From Candidatus Bathyarchaeota archaeon (lineage in GTDB: Archaea; Thermoproteota; Bathyarchaeia; Bathyarchaeales; SOJC01), in NCBI GenBank assembly GCA_030641425.1, contig DAOWHM010000028.1:1-14584 (forward strand): a DNA stretch of 14,584 bases, given 5' to 3'. Each line of letters opens with the position of its first letter. Position 1 is the stretch's first letter. The notes under the pieces are model-generated. The model did not search any database. It saw nothing but the letters and a program-made list of their open reading frames with translations, and had not been told where the DNA came from. The translations under genes were made by a program, and so were the position numbers. Below, in pieces: positions 8,280 to 14,584 of the stretch.

Positions 8280-10490
8280 ATGCCGAAATTTAAACAAACT
8301 GCGGAAATCCTCAAACTTATGCACAAAAAAGAGAATATTCGAGATATTGGAATCATTGCTCACATCGATCATGGGAAGACTACGATGACAGATAGTCTTC
8401 TTACAGAGGCAGGTCTTCTCAGCCCTAAGTATGCAGGTAAAGCCCGGCTTCTAGATTACTTGGAGGAGGAACAGAAAAGGGGAATCACCATAAAGACAGC
8501 AAACATCAGTCTTCTCCACGTAGAGAAGGAAACGTCATATCTTATCAACCTCGTCGATACGCCTGGACACGTGGATTTCACTGGGAAGGTCACGCGAGCT
8601 CTAAGAGCGATTGATGGGGCGGTCGTTGTGGTTGATGCTGTTGAAGAAGTGATGGTTCAAACAGAAACAGTTACTCGTCAGGCTCTTAATGAACGTGTGA
8701 GACCCGTATTATTCATCAACAAAGTTGACCGTCTAATTAAGGAGCTGAGACTAGGTCCCCAAGAAATTCAAGAGAAACTAGCGCGTATAATACGGGATTT
8801 TAACAATTTAATCGCGTTGTATGGTGAACCTGAGCAGAAAGAAAAATGGCAGGTGGAAGCGGGGAATGGCAGTGTAGCCTTCGGGTCAGCTTTGCATCGG
8901 TGGGGGTTCACTGTTGATATTGCCAAGGAGAAGGGTTTGAGATTCAACGAGATAATTGAGGCTTACAAGAATGATAAAGTGGAAGACTTAATGGAGCAGT
9001 TACCTCTTCATAAGGCCATTCTTGCGATGGTTGTAGATCATCTGCCAAATCCCGTTGATGCTCAAAAGTATAGAATTCCGAAGGTGTGGAAAGGTGATGT
9101 TGACTCCGAGATTGGGAGAGCTATGCTTAGTGCTGATCCTAAGGGTCCAATAGTAATCTGTATAACATTGACGCAGATGGATCCTCATGCTGGACTTGTA
9201 GCTACCGGACGTCTCTTTTCTGGAGTTGTGAAGGAAGGAGCGCGGGTTTACCTTGTGGGGGCTAAGCAGGAGTATCGTATTCAACAAGTTTCAATGTACA
9301 TGGGCGCCTTCAGAGAGGGTGTAGATCAGATAGATGCTGGGAATATAGCGGCACTCCTAGGTCTTGATAAAGCAAGGGCAGGCGAAACCCTCGTGAGTGT
9401 TAGTCACAAAGATGCCATGATTCCTTTCGAACGCATAAAATACGTATCTGAACCTGTCATCACAATCGCTATCGAACCGAAACATCCTAGAGATCTGCCA
9501 CGTTTGATCGACGTAATGGGTCGCTTGGCAATTGAAGACCCTAACCTTGTTACGAGCATCAACAAAGAAACTGGCGAATACTTGCTTAGCGGTATGGGTG
9601 AACTACACTTGGAAATCGCAGTCAAGTTCCTCAAGGAATATGCCGGTGGAGGACTTGAGATAATCACCTCAAAGCCACTTGTGGTTTACCGAGAGTCAAC
9701 TCTGACGCAAGGTGTAGTGGCTATGGCCAAAAGCCCCAACAAACACAGTAAATTCTGGATACAAGTAGAACCTCTCGAAGAAAAAATCATCCAGATGATA
9801 GAGAAAGGTGACCTAGCAGAAGAGATGGGGAGAAAGAGGTTGGGACCCATATTGAAAGAAGCAGGATGGCCTACAAATCACGCAAGAAACGTTTGGACAC
9901 TAGAAGAGCATAGAAATATCTTGGTTGATTTGACGAAGGGAGTACAATATCTCCGTGAAGTCCGAGATATGGTGATTGCCGGTTTCAGATGGGCATGCAG
10001 TAATGGTCCTCTCTGCGAAGAACCAATGCGTGGATTAAAGGTTACACTCACTGATGCCTCATTACATGAAGACCCTGTTCACAGAGGACCAGCGCAGATA
10101 ATGCCAGCCACACGACGAGGGATCCTAGGATCTTTCTTATCTTCAAACCCCATCATCCTTGAACCCGTCTACAAGATCGGTGTATCAGCATCCACGCAGT
10201 GGATAGGAGAAGTTGCCGGTTTGATTACAAGAAAGAGAGGGCGCATCATATCTTCAGAGCAGAAAGGTCCTTTGACAATTGTTACAGGTTACATACCGGT
10301 GGCTGAAACTTTCGGACTATCAGCAGAGATGCGATCAGCGACTTCAGGACATGCGTTCTGGCAGACAGCCTTTGACCACTGGGAAAAAGCACCTGAAAGC
10401 GTCGCCGCAGAGGTTATCCAAGCGACTAGAGAAAGAAGAGGTCTATCTCCGGACATACCAGGCATAAGCAGATTCATTGACAAAGCATGA
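8280..10490 (+). CDS. fusA: Translation elongation factor EF-2
   Basis: The GTPase that moves tRNAs and mRNA through the ribosome. From the ATG at 8280 (MPKFKQTAEILKLM, preceded by AAAGGAAG) the product is 736 residues, the normal archaeal length. G-domain motifs are AHIDHGKTT (27-35), KRGITI (66-71), DTPGHVDF (93-100) and NKVD (147-150). The last domain has the diphthamide loop LHEDPVHRGPAQIMPATRR, with the target His at residue 601. A diphthamide pathway is therefore expected elsewhere in the genome. Domain IV and V end with GYIPVAETFGLSAEMRSATSGHAF, typical of archaeal/eukaryotic EF-2. It stands alone, diverging from eS6. Confidence 0.97.
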   Translation: MPKFKQTAEILKLMHKKENIRDIGIIAHIDHGKTTMTDSLLTEAGLLSPKYAGKARLLDYLEEEQKRGITIKTANISLLHVEKETSYLINLVDTPGHVDFTGKVTRALRAIDGAVVVVDAVEEVMVQTETVTRQALNERVRPVLFINKVDRLIKELRLGPQEIQEKLARIIRDFNNLIALYGEPEQKEKWQVEAGNGSVAFGSALHRWGFTVDIAKEKGLRFNEIIEAYKNDKVEDLMEQLPLHKAILAMVVDHLPNPVDAQKYRIPKVWKGDVDSEIGRAMLSADPKGPIVICITLTQMDPHAGLVATGRLFSGVVKEGARVYLVGAKQEYRIQQVSMYMGAFREGVDQIDAGNIAALLGLDKARAGETLVSVSHKDAMIPFERIKYVSEPVITIAIEPKHPRDLPRLIDVMGRLAIEDPNLVTSINKETGEYLLSGMGELHLEIAVKFLKEYAGGGLEIITSKPLVVYRESTLTQGVVAMAKSPNKHSKFWIQVEPLEEKIIQMIEKGDLAEEMGRKRLGPILKEAGWPTNHARNVWTLEEHRNILVDLTKGVQYLREVRDMVIAGFRWACSNGPLCEEPMRGLKVTLTDASLHEDPVHRGPAQIMPATRRGILGSFLSSNPIILEPVYKIGVSASTQWIGEVAGLITRKRGRIISSEQKGPLTIVTGYIPVAETFGLSAEMRSATSGHAFWQTAFDHWEKAPESVAAEVIQATRERRGLSPDIPGISRFIDKA

Positions 10491-10736: not shown

Positions 10737-11480
10737 GTGATTAGAACTTTGAGTTTTGCCGTAGAAGCAGATGGACTTGTAAAGGTTTTTGGTAACATTC
10801 GAGCATTAGATGGTTTAAGCTTCAATATCAAGTCTGGCGAGATTTTTGGGATCATTGGACCTAATGGAGCAGGGAAGACGACAGCCCTCAGAATTATAGC
10901 CACATTGATCTTGCCGACCTCTGGGTCTGCCACTGTTTTTGGTCGCTCTGTGACTGCAGATGCGTCAGAAGTTCGCCGACTGATAACTTATCTTCCGGAG
11001 GAAGCTGGAGCTTACAAGAATCTTTCAGGAATTGAATATCTCAAATTCATGGGGAAATTCAACGTAAAAATTAAGGGAAAACTTGAAGAGGTCATCGAAG
11101 ACGCAGGAGATATCTCCGGTTTAGGTGAGCGTTTACATGACAAAGTGAAAACGTATAGTAAAGGTATGAAGCGGAGGCTCCTTGTAGCTAGAGCTCTCAT
11201 GACAAAGCCGAAGTTGGCGATTCTGGATGAACCAACGAGTGGCTTAGATGTTCTACATTCTGTTCACGTAAGGAAGATCATCAAGAATTATGTGGAAAAG
11301 CATGGTGTTACTGTTTTGCTTTCCAGTCATAATATGTTGGAAGTGGAATTTCTATGTGGAAGGGTAGCTTTGATTAATCGGGGGAAAATGGTGGCAGAAG
11401 GTTCCCCTGAGAACTTGAAACTAGAGAGCAAGGCTGCAAATCTGGAAGAAGTTTTCGCGAAGGTGGTAGGTTTTGTTTAG
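10737..11480 (+). CDS. ABC-2 type transporter ATP-binding protein
   Basis: The ATPase of an exporter; with the overlapping permease it should form a NatAB-like transporter in the cytoplasmic membrane. The substrate is unknown (sodium, drugs or lipids are transported by relatives). The 247-residue product has Walker A GPNGAGKTT (41-49), signature YSKGMKRR (140-147), Walker B LAILDEP (160-166) and the switch His198 (SSHNM). At the Q-loop the sequence is YLPEEAG, with Glu88 in place of Gln, as in many members of this subfamily. The start is GTG without a ribosome site, explained by the TATA box 31 bases before it. The next gene overlaps it by eight bases. Confidence 0.93.
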   Translation: MIRTLSFAVEADGLVKVFGNIRALDGLSFNIKSGEIFGIIGPNGAGKTTALRIIATLILPTSGSATVFGRSVTADASEVRRLITYLPEEAGAYKNLSGIEYLKFMGKFNVKIKGKLEEVIEDAGDISGLGERLHDKVKTYSKGMKRRLLVARALMTKPKLAILDEPTSGLDVLHSVHVRKIIKNYVEKHGVTVLLSSHNMLEVEFLCGRVALINRGKMVAEGSPENLKLESKAANLEEVFAKVVGFV

Positions 11481-12747
11481 GGATTTAAGGAACATTGTGT
11501 CCAAGGAACTGAAAGAGCTGCTTCGAGACCCAAAGATTCTCATCGGTATGATTGTCGTTCCCCTAGTTATGTTTCCCATAATAGGGTTAGTTATTAGAGG
11601 ATCAATGGAATCAACTCAGCAACGCCTACAAAGACTCGAAGTAGGCCTCCTCAACTTTGACAAAGGCTCTATTGCTGAAGATTTGACTGAATTCCTAAGC
11701 ACGTACATTATTGTGAAGGCCATCAATGCTTCGAGTGTGGAAGAAGCCGGTGAGATCATGCAATCCGAGACAAATGCAACAGATCTTATAGTGATTCCGT
11801 CAGGGTTCTCGGAGAATGTTTCAGTGGAAGCAGAAGCTTTCATCGATGTATATAGTATCTTCTCAGGTACCGGAGGATTCGCTGAAACTGCCAGCTCATC
11901 TGCTGTAGCAGGATACCTAGAGTATTACAAACGCCAGCGTGCGCCTGACCCATTTCAGACTGTATCCAAATCGATAATTAAAGGAAAACCAACGGATGTT
12001 CCCCCCAGTATGCTCTTTACCATAATGTACTCTCAAGTCTTTGCTTTGCCTGTGACAATTAGCGTCTTGCTAATTTTTTCGATGCAGATTGCTGCAACCT
12101 CGGTCGCTTCAGAGAAAGAAGAGAAAACTTTGGAAACTTTACTCAGTTTGCCGATAAGCAGGTTCACTATTCTGTCTGGAAAGCTTATTGGATCAATAAT
12201 AGTGGCTGCTGTAGGAGCTGTGGCCATCATTGTAGGGCTCAACTATTACATGGGGTCCTTCATGTTGATGGGTGACATTGTGGGTTCCGTAGATCTTGCA
12301 GCTGTGGGGCTCGCTCCAACTCTTGTGGGCTACCTGGTCTTAGGTGCATCTGTTTTCATGGCTCTGCTGTCAGCTCTAGCGTTGGCGATAATCATTTCAG
12401 CTTTTGCTGATGATGTTAGAGGAGCCCAGTCGATTGTAGGCTACCTTTACACTGTGATAATGCTTCCAATGCTCGTTATCATGTTCGCTGACTTCAACTC
12501 TCTACCTTTGGCAGCCAAAATAGTGTTACTCGCTATTCCTTACACTCATCCGATGTTAGCAGCTCAAGCGAGTCTCACAGGCGATTACCTTACCGCAATT
12601 CTCGGAGTAGGCTATCTAATCCTCTTCACGATCGCCTTACTTTACATCGCTGCAAAACTTTTCTCCACAGAGAAAATTTTAACGGTTAAGTTGAAGTTGA
12701 GAGGTCTAAGACTAAGAAGGAAAACTCGCTCTCCACGTGAGGTTTAA
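11473..12747 (+). CDS. ABC-2 type transporter permease (NatB-like)
   Basis: The membrane part of the exporter, 424 residues. A first membrane segment lies at about 20-42 (ILIGMIVVPLVMFPIIGLVI). A roughly 140-residue external domain rich in Ser, Glu and Asn follows, then five or six more segments from about residue 190 (FALPVTISVLLIFSMQIAAT onwards) and a basic cytoplasmic end (KLRGLRLRRKTRSPR). The motif VASEKEEKTLETLLSLPISR after the second segment is the hallmark of ABC-2 permeases. The start is TTG, preceded by AGGTGGTAGG, inside the end of the ATPase gene. The RNase P RNA gene starts 24 bases after the stop. Confidence 0.92.
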   Translation: MFRDLRNIVSKELKELLRDPKILIGMIVVPLVMFPIIGLVIRGSMESTQQRLQRLEVGLLNFDKGSIAEDLTEFLSTYIIVKAINASSVEEAGEIMQSETNATDLIVIPSGFSENVSVEAEAFIDVYSIFSGTGGFAETASSSAVAGYLEYYKRQRAPDPFQTVSKSIIKGKPTDVPPSMLFTIMYSQVFALPVTISVLLIFSMQIAATSVASEKEEKTLETLLSLPISRFTILSGKLIGSIIVAAVGAVAIIVGLNYYMGSFMLMGDIVGSVDLAAVGLAPTLVGYLVLGASVFMALLSALALAIIISAFADDVRGAQSIVGYLYTVIMLPMLVIMFADFNSLPLAAKIVLLAIPYTHPMLAAQASLTGDYLTAILGVGYLILFTIALLYIAAKLFSTEKILTVKLKLRGLRLRRKTRSPREV

Positions 12748-12770: not shown

Positions 12771-13092
12771 CTGGGGTTGGTGAGCTGGCGGACAGCTCCG
12801 AGCTTTCGAAGCTTGAGGAAACTCCGTCCACCATGTAGAACTGCATCATCCGTAAGGATGAAAGGCGAGAGCTTTGGCAACAGAACAGAAACGAAACGTC
12901 CATCCACGCAGTTGACGATGATGCATGATAAGTTGTTGAAGGATGCTGGATGCGAAACGGTGAAACGGCTGTCCTGCAGGGTGTAAGGGCAAATAGGCGC
13001 CCATGAAGAACTGCAAGAGGCGCGGGTAGCCCGAATAGCTGAATGCTGTCTATGAACAGAAGGCGGGTTACGTCCAGCACACCATGCCCCAG
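12771..13092 (+). ncRNA. rnpB: RNase P RNA
   Basis: The catalytic RNA of RNase P, which makes tRNA 5' ends. Evidence: a conserved region I sequence, GAGGAAACTCCGTCCACC (12815-12832); the GGCAACAGAACAGAAACG segment (12875-12892); GGTGAAACGG (12959-12968); CGGGTAGCCCGAATAGCTG; and a conserved region V, ACAGAAGGCGGGTTACG (about 13057-13073). The two ends pair as helix P1: 12771-12788 with 13074-13092, 17 pairs with one bulge and one mismatch. A P3-like hairpin GAGCTTTCGAAGCTT lies at about 12800-12814. At about 322 bases the size is normal for an archaeal type A RNA. Reading frames inside it are not genes. Its 3' end overlaps the first codons of the tyrosine recombinase, and no T run ends it. 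Confidence 0.93.
13039..13056 (+). repeat. Direct repeat, copy 1, in RNase P RNA 3' region
   Basis: CTGAATGCTGTCTATGAA. A second copy lies 57 bases (19 codons) further on, in the integrase gene, with 16 of 18 bases the same. Read in the integrase frame this copy would spell LNAVYE. It may be part of an attachment site. Confidence 0.65.
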
Positions 13093-13998
13093 CAACTGAA
13101 TGCCGTCTATCAAAACGGAAAAATCGTTAAAATCCTCTGGGAAATGAAGAAGAACGGCAAAGCAAACGCAACAATCAAAAACGTAGGCAAAGCACTACGA
13201 GTCTTAGACCGCAGTTGCAATTTAGACAAACCCGAAACAGTAAGAACATTCATAGCAACTCTCGACCGCAAGAACGGATACAAAAGACAACTATGCTACT
13301 CCTACAACGTTTATGTAAAAATTCACGGCTTGCAGTGGACAAAACCAATATACTATCAAATCGCAAAAATGCCCAAAATCCCAACAGAAGCAAAAATTAA
13401 TTGCATTATAGCAAACGCATCTAAAAAACTTGCAACAGCCATACCCATGTCAAAAGACACAGGACTCAGACCAATAGAACTAATGAACCTCAAGCTAAAA
13501 GACTTAGACTTTCAAAAAGGAGCAGTATATCCCGAAACTGCAAAACACGGTAGCCCAAGAGTACTAAAACTCAAGAACAGCACGTTAAACATGCTAAACA
13601 AATACCTCGCAGACCGCAACATCGGACTTAATGATAAAATATTCGGTTGGTGGAACAGCGATATTTACGGCAACAGATTTAGAAAGACTCGAAACAGAGT
13701 AGCCAAGAAAATGTCCGACATATCAATAAAAACCATTAGACTTTACGACTTACGACACCTCTTCGCAACAATGACATACCACAGAACAAAAGACATTCTA
13801 TTCGTCAAACAACAAATGGGGCACAAAAAAATCGAAACAACCCTAATCTATACACAACTACTCCAATTCGACAAAGACGACAACTACACATGCAAAATAG
13901 CCCAGAACGCAGAACAAGCCACAGAACTAATAGAAAACGGATTCGAGTATGTCACAACAACACCAGACGAACTAATGCTATTCCGAAAACGCAAATAA
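13084..13998 (+). CDS. Tyrosine recombinase (integrase) of an element at the RNase P RNA gene
   Basis: Cuts and rejoins DNA at attachment sites. The 304-residue product has a core-binding domain (about 12-95) and a catalytic domain with Arg129 (DTGLRPIEL), Lys154 (AKHGSPR), Arg224 with His225 (YDLRH), His247 (QMGHKKIETT) and the nucleophile Tyr256 (LIYTQ). The usual first His of the HxxRH box is Tyr221. The ATG at 13084 lies inside the 3' P1 strand of RNase P RNA. No other start codon precedes the core-binding domain, and no ribosome site is visible. The gene has the same direction as rnpB and abuts its 3' end, the usual place of an int gene next to its attachment site. Base use is odd: much A and C, little G and T on the coding strand. 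A T run follows the stop. Confidence 0.9.
   Translation: MPQQLNAVYQNGKIVKILWEMKKNGKANATIKNVGKALRVLDRSCNLDKPETVRTFIATLDRKNGYKRQLCYSYNVYVKIHGLQWTKPIYYQIAKMPKIPTEAKINCIIANASKKLATAIPMSKDTGLRPIELMNLKLKDLDFQKGAVYPETAKHGSPRVLKLKNSTLNMLNKYLADRNIGLNDKIFGWWNSDIYGNRFRKTRNRVAKKMSDISIKTIRLYDLRHLFATMTYHRTKDILFVKQQMGHKKIETTLIYTQLLQFDKDDNYTCKIAQNAEQATELIENGFEYVTTTPDELMLFRKRK
13096..13113 (+). repeat. Direct repeat, copy 2, in the 5' end of the integrase gene
   Basis: CTGAATGCCGTCTATCAA, differing from copy 1 at two of 18 positions. It encodes LNAVYQ, residues 5-10 of the integrase. Confidence 0.65.
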
Positions 13999-14283: not shown

Positions 14284-14565
14284 TTGGAGAGAATTAGATT
14301 GGAGAGAAAACTTGTCTTTCTCACGTTTCTGGTGATTCTTCTCTCGAATTTGTTGGGTATAGCAATTAAAGTTGAGAAGGTGAAAGCAAGCGGAACCATC
14401 TACATCAGAGCTGATGGAAGTATTGATCCGCTAACAGCTAACATCACGAGTGTCAATAATGTTACTTATATCTGCACTGGCAACAATTATGACGAGATTG
14501 TTGTCAAGAGAGACAACATCCTCCTCGATGGGCAAGGTTACCTCCTTCAAGGAACAGGTAGCTGA
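14284..14565 (+). CDS. Secreted beta-helix (NosD-like) protein, N-terminus; interrupted by TGA
   Basis: A 93-codon frame with a signal peptide: basic start, hydrophobic stretch VFLTFLVILLSNLLGIAI (residues 11-28) and a likely cleavage near VKASG. The mature part starts GTIYIRADGSIDPLTANITS and goes on with YDEIVVKRDNILLDGQGYLLQGTGS, the opening of large secreted right-handed beta-helix proteins common in Bathyarchaeia and methanogens. Those proteins are many hundreds of residues long. Here a TGA follows GTGS, and the same frame continues beyond it as YVSGFG to the window edge, so one base change (GGA to TGA) may have broken the gene. The start may be TTG 14284 or, with a better-spaced GGAGAG, TTG 14299. 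Whether it belongs to the integrated element is unknown. Confidence 0.65.
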   Translation: MERIRLERKLVFLTFLVILLSNLLGIAIKVEKVKASGTIYIRADGSIDPLTANITSVNNVTYICTGNNYDEIVVKRDNILLDGQGYLLQGTGS

Positions 14566-14584
14566 TATGTAAGCGGATTTGGAC

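Follow-up and report, generated by a model that had tools for sequence, protein, structure and literature searches.

The 3' end of the RNase P RNA gene as probable attachment site of a family of small integrative elements in Bathyarchaeales

Introduction

Elements that integrate at the 3' ends of RNA genes are of a known kind, and the locus described here resembles several of them. Islander tRNA/tmRNA islands carry an integrase gene, restore the target with their own sequence and leave a displaced fragment that marks the far end, and they occur in arrays whose members each possess an integrase and a fragment of their own (PMC4383910). Our locus and its relatives share these features; unlike those of the Islander islands, the target is the RNase P RNA gene (rnpB) and the integrase frame overlaps it. 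The elements of Haloferax gibbonsii LR2-5 are likewise bounded by terminal direct repeats of the target's 3' part and have a XerC/D-type integrase beside a complete target copy, but all three lie at tRNA genes, and in the text available to us RNase P RNA figures only in a gene count (PMC7921747). Classical and suicidal integrases are tyrosine recombinases of archaeal elements, and the suicidal ones overlap their target, as here; according to the portions consulted of a review, the suicidal (SSV-type) integrase is split into int(N) and int(C) and has the profile PF16795, whereas the integrase described here is unsplit and matches PF00589 (PMC8371274). Integrated elements of thaumarchaea also have direct-repeat att sites and form arrays by re-use of a site; in the sections consulted, 39 of 68 are placed in tRNA genes, 15 in intergenic regions and 14 in protein genes (PMC6563490). 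The term 'RNase P' occurs zero times in the last two sources. Integrases at tRNA 3' ends within the same archaeal order belong to the same protein family and have the same geometry as those at rnpB, and differ in the target gene.

We found no description of rnpB as an integration site among the open-access papers that our searches listed; wider target surveys could list it. One study reportedly maps many integration targets, and rnpB could be among them. As far as this search goes, the remark in a first-pass annotation of the DNA that RNase P RNA is an unusual target holds, and rnpB would be a new target for a known kind of element. In the consulted parts of other papers (PMC4383910, PMC7921747, PMC5462765, PMC2824730, PMC2705793, PMC8776855, PMC3541175, PMC2516327, PMC3675131), rnpB appears only in reference titles, gene counts, annotation, phylogeny or as a promoter, not as an att site. 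Additional rnpB copies are predicted in mycobacteria and are not called att sites in the corresponding part of that paper (PMC9569102).

Results

An integrase gene overlaps a complete RNase P RNA gene

The stretch of DNA analysed, here called the window, is the whole of contig C11 (14584 b) from a metagenome-assembled genome (MAG, G000) of 1.0 Mb in 145 contigs that is 79.5% complete. Its features are as follows.

10737..12747, + strand: chromosomal left flank, ABC ATPase and ABC-2 permease (Pfam; shared families F2 and F10)
12771..12788, + strand: 5' strand of helix P1, pairing with 13074-13092 (17 pairs, counted by hand)
12780..13092, + strand: rnpB, archaeal RNase P RNA gene, complete (Rfam match 12780-13082; 3' strand of P1 to 13092)
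13039..13092, + strand: overlap, the rnpB 3' end being also open in the integrase frame (reading-frame analysis)
13064..13084, + strand: putative attachment core (attL) CGGGTTACGTCCAGCACACCA; relatives carry a second copy of the matching stretch where their elements end distally
13084..13998, + strand: tyrosine integrase, 304 aa from the first ATG (PF00589; frame open back to 13039)
14284..14565, + strand: 5' part of a surface-type or secreted-protein-like ORF, with TGA six codons before the contig end (stretch 14284-14583)

The ABC ATPase and permease pair also lies 5' of rnpB in the relatives G002, G003, G007 and G012. The contig ends 586 nt beyond the integrase stop, and the ORF at its right end could be either element cargo or chromosome. 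By eye, an ORF resembling it lies 3' of rnpB in G055.

The rnpB gene matches RF00373 with 213.1 bits over the full model (1-288; window 12780-13082). By hand count its P1 has 17 pairs, one of them G.U, together with one A.A mismatch and one bulged base, which bears out the earlier statement that the gene is complete and closed by 17 pairs. A window-wide search returned no tRNA and no tmRNA; the target there is RF00373, and a tRNA- or tmRNA-targeting island was accordingly rejected. The window thus holds an integrase at the 3' end of an intact target gene.

The integrase belongs to the tyrosine recombinase family (PF00589, 63.6 bits against a cut-off of 27.1, E 2.6e-17). R129, K154, R224, H247 and Y256, which we take to be its catalytic residues, are invariant in 12 of 12 aligned integrases. 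An AlphaFold model (pLDDT 84.3, pTM 0.59) shows four helices at the N-terminus, starting from residue 8 and all encoded 3' of the core, and on this prediction the N-terminal domain is complete. Foldseek gives XerA as the best match of the model (E 2.4e-11, TM 0.46), the closest solved structures being XerA and other tyrosine recombinases; in a viral collection the best relative has 42% identity over half of the protein.

The first-pass annotation had the integrase begin exactly at the rnpB 3' end, without spacer. Adjacency and shared direction stand; the exact abutment does not. The frame is free of stops from 13039, which is 54 nt short of where P1 ends, and its first ATG (13084) falls in the 3' strand of that helix; the genes therefore overlap rather than merely abut. 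The claim that the integrase differs in composition from the genes on its left is true as a strand asymmetry: A+C on the coding strand is 0.67 against 0.45-0.54 in five left-hand genes, and GC is 0.40 against 0.43-0.49. High A+C also occurs in other integrases (0.58-0.71 in eight rnpB-linked relatives and 0.61 in one tRNA-linked relative, with a lower 0.53 in a zinc-ribbon integrase), which makes the difference mostly a trait of the integrase family.

By eye, two near-identical 15-nt stretches, CTGAATGCyGTCTAT, lie 57 nt apart at 13039-13053, inside rnpB, and 13096-13110, inside the integrase gene, both in frame (LNAVY twice); the pair is absent from the repeat-search output for the window. 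A first idea, that this repeat is a remnant of a displaced rnpB end, was set aside: 'GAATGCC' 3' of rnpB in several relatives may be start-codon context.

Second copies of the rnpB end bound elements in six relatives

Six other genomes of the order have a related integrase at the 3' end of rnpB and, 3.3-8.2 kb downstream, a second copy of the rnpB end in the same direction. Both ends of each element are on one contig, with these core-to-core lengths and exact direct repeats.

G009: 6570 bp, repeat of 19 nt
G036: 5055 bp, repeat of 20 nt
G017: 4909 bp, repeat of 25 nt
G136: 8155 bp, repeat of 8 nt
G051: 6678 bp, repeat of 22 nt
G045: 3288 bp, repeat of 23 nt

The distal copy that the first-pass annotation had proposed to look for to the right of the integrase is therefore present, on the same strand, in these six relatives; in the window and its 1.0-Mb, 79.5% complete assembly a search allowing up to 3 mismatches returned only the rnpB copy. 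The putative attachment core of the family is the last ~25 nt of rnpB, CGGGTTACGnCCAGCACACCAGCC, which is largely the 3' strand of P1; its last bases are CACCATGCCCC in the window as against CACCAGCC in other family members. Identity between the two copies begins at the same base, the C of CGGGTTAC, in five of the six elements, and the G036 repeat (20 nt) begins 3 nt further left than those of G009, G017, G051 and G045. The two G136 copies have 3 mismatches in 25. In G009, G017, G051 and G045 the variable core bases track the host's own rnpB, as with ACAGCCAGCACGCC in both G051 copies.

A sequence-only model of the rnpB 3' end (R1), built from 31 sequences, matches in at least 128 of 162 genomes of the order, with short extra copies besides rnpB among the matches listed. 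Class-wide, 185 of 256 genomes match at E <= 1e-4; in 25 of the 185 there is more than one match, which in some may reflect one gene split over contigs. We collected 40 core copies with at most two mismatches from 25 loci; ten of these copies are rnpB or were treated as rnpB, the one in G137 being interrupted by the contig end. An element-end motif like ATTACTAAGG (also ATTACTAAG-like) lies at most 34 nt before 15 of the 30 non-rnpB copies and before none of the 10 rnpB copies; the other 15 extra copies lack it, and two of the 30 stand at the very beginning of a contig, where it could not be seen. Searched as one pattern, motif plus core matched in five of 12 chosen genomes, some matches being two mismatches off, and the backward control matched one genome. 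The pattern had no match in G000 or in G001 of the same genus; the latter is uninformative, since its contig stops inside rnpB and R1 has no match in that genome. Longer displaced rnpB copies, 58 to about 106 nt, occur in G055, G086 and G036 (contig C19); of two long copies in G086, only one is the whole rnpB. Together with the extra copies that lack the motif, they do not all fit one crossover site, and these sequences suggest that more than one crossover place within rnpB may be in use.

Perfect or near-perfect rnpB cores also occur at six loci (L108, L117, L118, L131, L133, L134) with no integrase of the rnpB-linked family in the stretch fetched; the end motif is present at five of them. 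At L139 (G007, contig C10), an rnpB-clade integrase lies away from rnpB near 9450, flanked to the left by half a core and to the right by motif plus core (11951-11980), perhaps an insertion at a secondary site.

Occupied, decayed and empty sites

A full-length integrase whose conserved part starts at most 110 nt 3' of the rnpB end was found in 11 of 53 genomes, the window's included. The 53 comprise 30 initial loci, loci among the 30 best R1 matches and stretches chosen as interesting, so that 11 of 53 is not a frequency; G001, G010 and G044, in which the rnpB end is cut or masked, were left out. The 10 occurrences in the 52 other genomes, a non-random sample, argue that the adjacency in the window is not a matter of chance. 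The first rnpB search gave 44 rnpB-bearing genomes out of 61. The comparison covers 34 of the 44, the remainder being 3 with a cut or masked rnpB end and 7 outside the comparison; an intact integrase lies at rnpB in 7 of the 34. Scanning for remnants with queries trimmed of rnpB-encoded residues gave a decayed integrase at rnpB in G003, another in G137, where the copy that it follows is diverged and has lost its rnpB body to the contig end, and weak, doubtful matches about 390-540 nt from rnpB in G007, G012 and G035. No integrase was found at rnpB in 37 of the 53 genomes, 27 of them with at least 1000 nt of sequence, so the integrase does not lie beside rnpB in all relatives, the pattern that would have spoken against an element. 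Within the window's own family of 13 genomes, the integrase is intact in G000, G002 and G009, a remnant in G003, absent in G006 and doubtful in G007 and G012; the rnpB end is cut or masked in G001 and G010, and rnpB was not found in four.

Tandem arrangements occur in two genomes. In G036, two non-rnpB core copies are each followed directly by an intact integrase, and in G009 one such copy is followed directly by an integrase remnant. Beyond the last displaced rnpB copy, G036 and G137 both have family F6.

A related genome lacking the element, one of the checks that the earlier reading called for, is available between genera, rather than between strains or within the window's genus. In G061 the site is empty and the gene block F6-F8 lies 1.1 kb 3' of rnpB; in G051, of the same family, a 6.7-kb element stands between rnpB and F6-F8, and the block starts about 1.0 kb after attR. 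With the element subtracted, G051 has the gene order of G061. The stretches between att and F6 cannot be aligned base by base, the two being of different genera.

The genomes compared are MAGs, and parts of some are masked. Contigs end inside the rnpB 3' region in G001, G044, G074, G122, G137, G146 and G155, and one starts there in G072. These breaks are suggestive of the effect that repeated rnpB ends are expected to have on short-read assembly.

Element cargo

Gene content varies between genomes. Three of the six elements share a cysteine-rich protein of 325-344 aa with an H-x-H motif and 43-56% mutual identity, and two genomes carry candidate anti-phage defence genes.

L107:5040-6014, L125:3714-4745 and L126:6067-7089: H-x-H protein family, one per element
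L109:5846-6607, - strand (G036): TIR protein (PDC-S35, E 1.6e-62), candidate defence gene
L116:8182-9252, - strand (G017): AbiLi-like ATPase (E 3.3e-36), candidate defence gene

Among 39 homologues of the H-x-H protein the second H is invariant and the first at least 90% conserved. It has 367 homologues at E <= 1e-5, and those with a source name are mostly 'hypothetical protein'. Searches gave no Pfam match above cut-off, no PHROG, no PDB entry by sequence and none by fold at E <= 0.001. Against viral models there were 14 unnamed matches at E <= 0.001, and microvirus replication initiators followed at 1.9e-3 and 3.4e-3, a weak structural similarity. Our guess is that the protein may be a rolling-circle (HUH) replication initiator. 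Integrase P0001, 89% identical to that of the window, and the H-x-H relative P0131 are each reported on an ENA contig of 8388 b, perhaps the same one.

G017 has a TATA-binding protein gene in the stretch from rnpB to attR (L116:6856-7410, - strand), and G036 has one upstream of a core copy (L110, near the first core copy of that locus); these could be either cargo or a trapped host gene. G036 also has a C-terminal integrase piece within the element, beside the intact integrase (L109:6595-6957, + strand).

Integrase phylogeny and choice of target

The window's integrase is 76% identical to that of G036, from another family, versus 60% and 47% to those of G009 and G002 from its own, so the integrase has not spread vertically. 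Within its integrase family, each of the eight nearest loci that have a name bears the label Candidatus Bathyarchaeota or Bathyarchaeum.

A tree of 39 rows groups 12 of the 14 integrases linked to rnpB or to a core copy into a single clade (95/97), which has four further members; among these four, by eye, G007 has half a core upstream and G054 and G062 have core-like scraps. With unlabelled rows left aside, a single change suffices for the rnpB label in this tree. A larger set comprises 74 integrases: 12 adjoin rnpB and 3 a core copy, 10 lie at the 3' end or T-arm of a tRNA and 6 close to a tRNA on the opposite strand, 3 adjoin a GGGGTCTG stretch, and the other 40 lie at no recognised feature. 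Its tree recovers the same main clade (16 rows, SH-aLRT 97) and places G144 with G147, and also L209, in the other half, among zinc-ribbon integrases. L209 is from Crenarchaeota archaeon 13_1_40CM_3_52_17, and its contig starts inside rnpB; Rfam confirms rnpB for G144 and G147, and not for the truncated L209. The rnpB label now needs three changes, or at least two judged by starred branches, and a constraint uniting all 15 rnpB rows is rejected (AU p 2e-69; 4e-38 without L209; a quick tree, with two trees compared). A single origin of rnpB use, allowed by the 39-row tree, was therefore rejected. The placement of G144 and G147 and the AU result make more than one origin likely, and from these alignments rnpB was probably adopted as a target more than once, L209 being tentatively a further separate case.

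The rnpB-linked clade lies near clades found at tRNA 3' ends, and the related tRNA-end integrases of the order show the same geometry. Mimicry of tRNA was considered as the cause of the switch and rejected. The rnpB 3' end is the most tRNA-3'-end-like 28-nt window in 9 of 31 rnpB genes and in the top 5% in 11 of 31, the first five genes having given four of five. This is weak, and we do not use it as evidence.

By eye, four integrases of one clade (L053, L061, L111, L137) lie 3' of a shared stretch of the GGGGTCTG type, GGGGTCTGyCCGTC...CTGGGACGGC..CATCATCCCCC, possibly another RNA gene that serves as a target; an Rfam search of L053, L061 and L111 gave no match.

Discussion

Is the window, then, one end of an integrated element? 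We consider it highly likely that the window contains the attL of such an element, and that this element belongs to a family of small integrative elements in which the integrase recombines attP with the last ~25 nt of rnpB. The integrase would recombine the element's attP with the 3'-terminal core of rnpB, the crossover would fall inside the core (CGGGTTACGnCCAGCACACC), and the host's rnpB end would be swapped for the element's copy. Part of the P1 3' strand (13074-13092) would then come from the element, which, by supplying its own rnpB end, would leave P1 and the ribozyme whole, and the host's original end would be displaced to the far side as attR. As read from their sequences, the relatives show the geometry, the direct repeats, the element-end motif, the tandem arrays and a pair of empty and occupied sites. 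For the family, the second copies in six relatives and the empty and occupied pair thus support the original proposal of an integrative element with rnpB as its attachment site. The reaction is presumably carried out by the integrase, and we infer that the copy in the window is or was mobile and is, or once was, paired with a distal site past the contig end.

The window could instead hold a stranded integrase, left when an element once at rnpB lost its distal end by deletion or decay, with nothing mobile remaining. We think this unlikely, if with some weight: the window's assembly has no second core copy and decayed integrases do occur at rnpB (G003, and another in G137), whereas the window's frame is intact with the family's invariant residues and the contig ends 586 nt on, in a genome 79.5% complete and in 145 contigs. 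The open frame that runs past the core into rnpB in 10 of the 11 intact cases (not in G045) recalls SSV-type elements, in which attP lies within the integrase gene and integration splits it; the window would then hold the int(C) half, overlapping rnpB. This is very improbable and was rejected. In the AlphaFold model all four N-terminal helices are encoded after the core, and in the attR of G009, G017 and G036 (C19) a TGA stands directly before the core in the RVTxST frame, so that no int(N) is fused in that frame. The frame through the core also differs between members, all three being used, and the Pfam match is to PF00589, not to the PF16795 named for that type in the part of the review consulted (PMC8371274).

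That the recombinase is simply the host's own, kept beside rnpB by descent with no mobile element, could draw on the recurrence of the adjacency across families. We give it very little credence: the integrase was not found at rnpB in 37 of the 53 genomes, there are tandem copies and distal repeats, its tree is at odds with host families, and its kin lie at tRNA genes. An assembly chimera of rnpB and an unrelated integrase has a negligible probability; the source is a MAG and its contig ends nearby, but the same type of junction recurs in independent assemblies, two of them single-contig (G002, G045).

Residues encoded by rnpB were found by regular expression at the N-terminus of 14 of the best 120 of 1153 homologues, with a few more by eye. 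The 14 split over three frames (7, 2 and 5, one of the five in an attR-like context); since all three occur through the core, the frame through rnpB is not conserved. In G009 and G017 no ATG, GTG or TTG precedes the first integrase helix except inside rnpB, where a conserved GAATGCC would give MPSLN(R/K)RRVT.... In the free form of these two elements, the TGA just before the core in that frame would mean that full-length integrase arises only upon integration. rnpB might accordingly complete the integrase gene, with integration creating the full-length protein, perhaps from the rnpB promoter, and the excision enzyme being made only while the element is integrated in rnpB. We find this rather doubtful: G002, G111, G144 and G147 (4 of the 11 intact cases) lack any standard start before the first helix, rnpB included, and G000, G036 and G051 each supply their own ATG, at the end of the core or shortly beyond it. 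If it were true, RNase P RNA and the integrase would have a transcript and sequence in common.

RNase P RNA is essential and usually encoded by a single-copy gene, and the 3' end of rnpB used here is the closing helix P1 of that RNA. That related integrases use it repeatedly, probably after more than one adoption, suggests that mobile elements can find a safe harbour in further small structured RNA genes whose 3' ends are conserved, beyond those of tRNA and tmRNA. Two of the rnpB elements carry candidate defence genes. In these archaea, here seen as MAGs, second copies of the rnpB end offer a search marker for elements, and rnpB-targeting elements may account for contig breaks at rnpB. The switch from tRNA genes to rnpB as target becomes testable within one integrase family.
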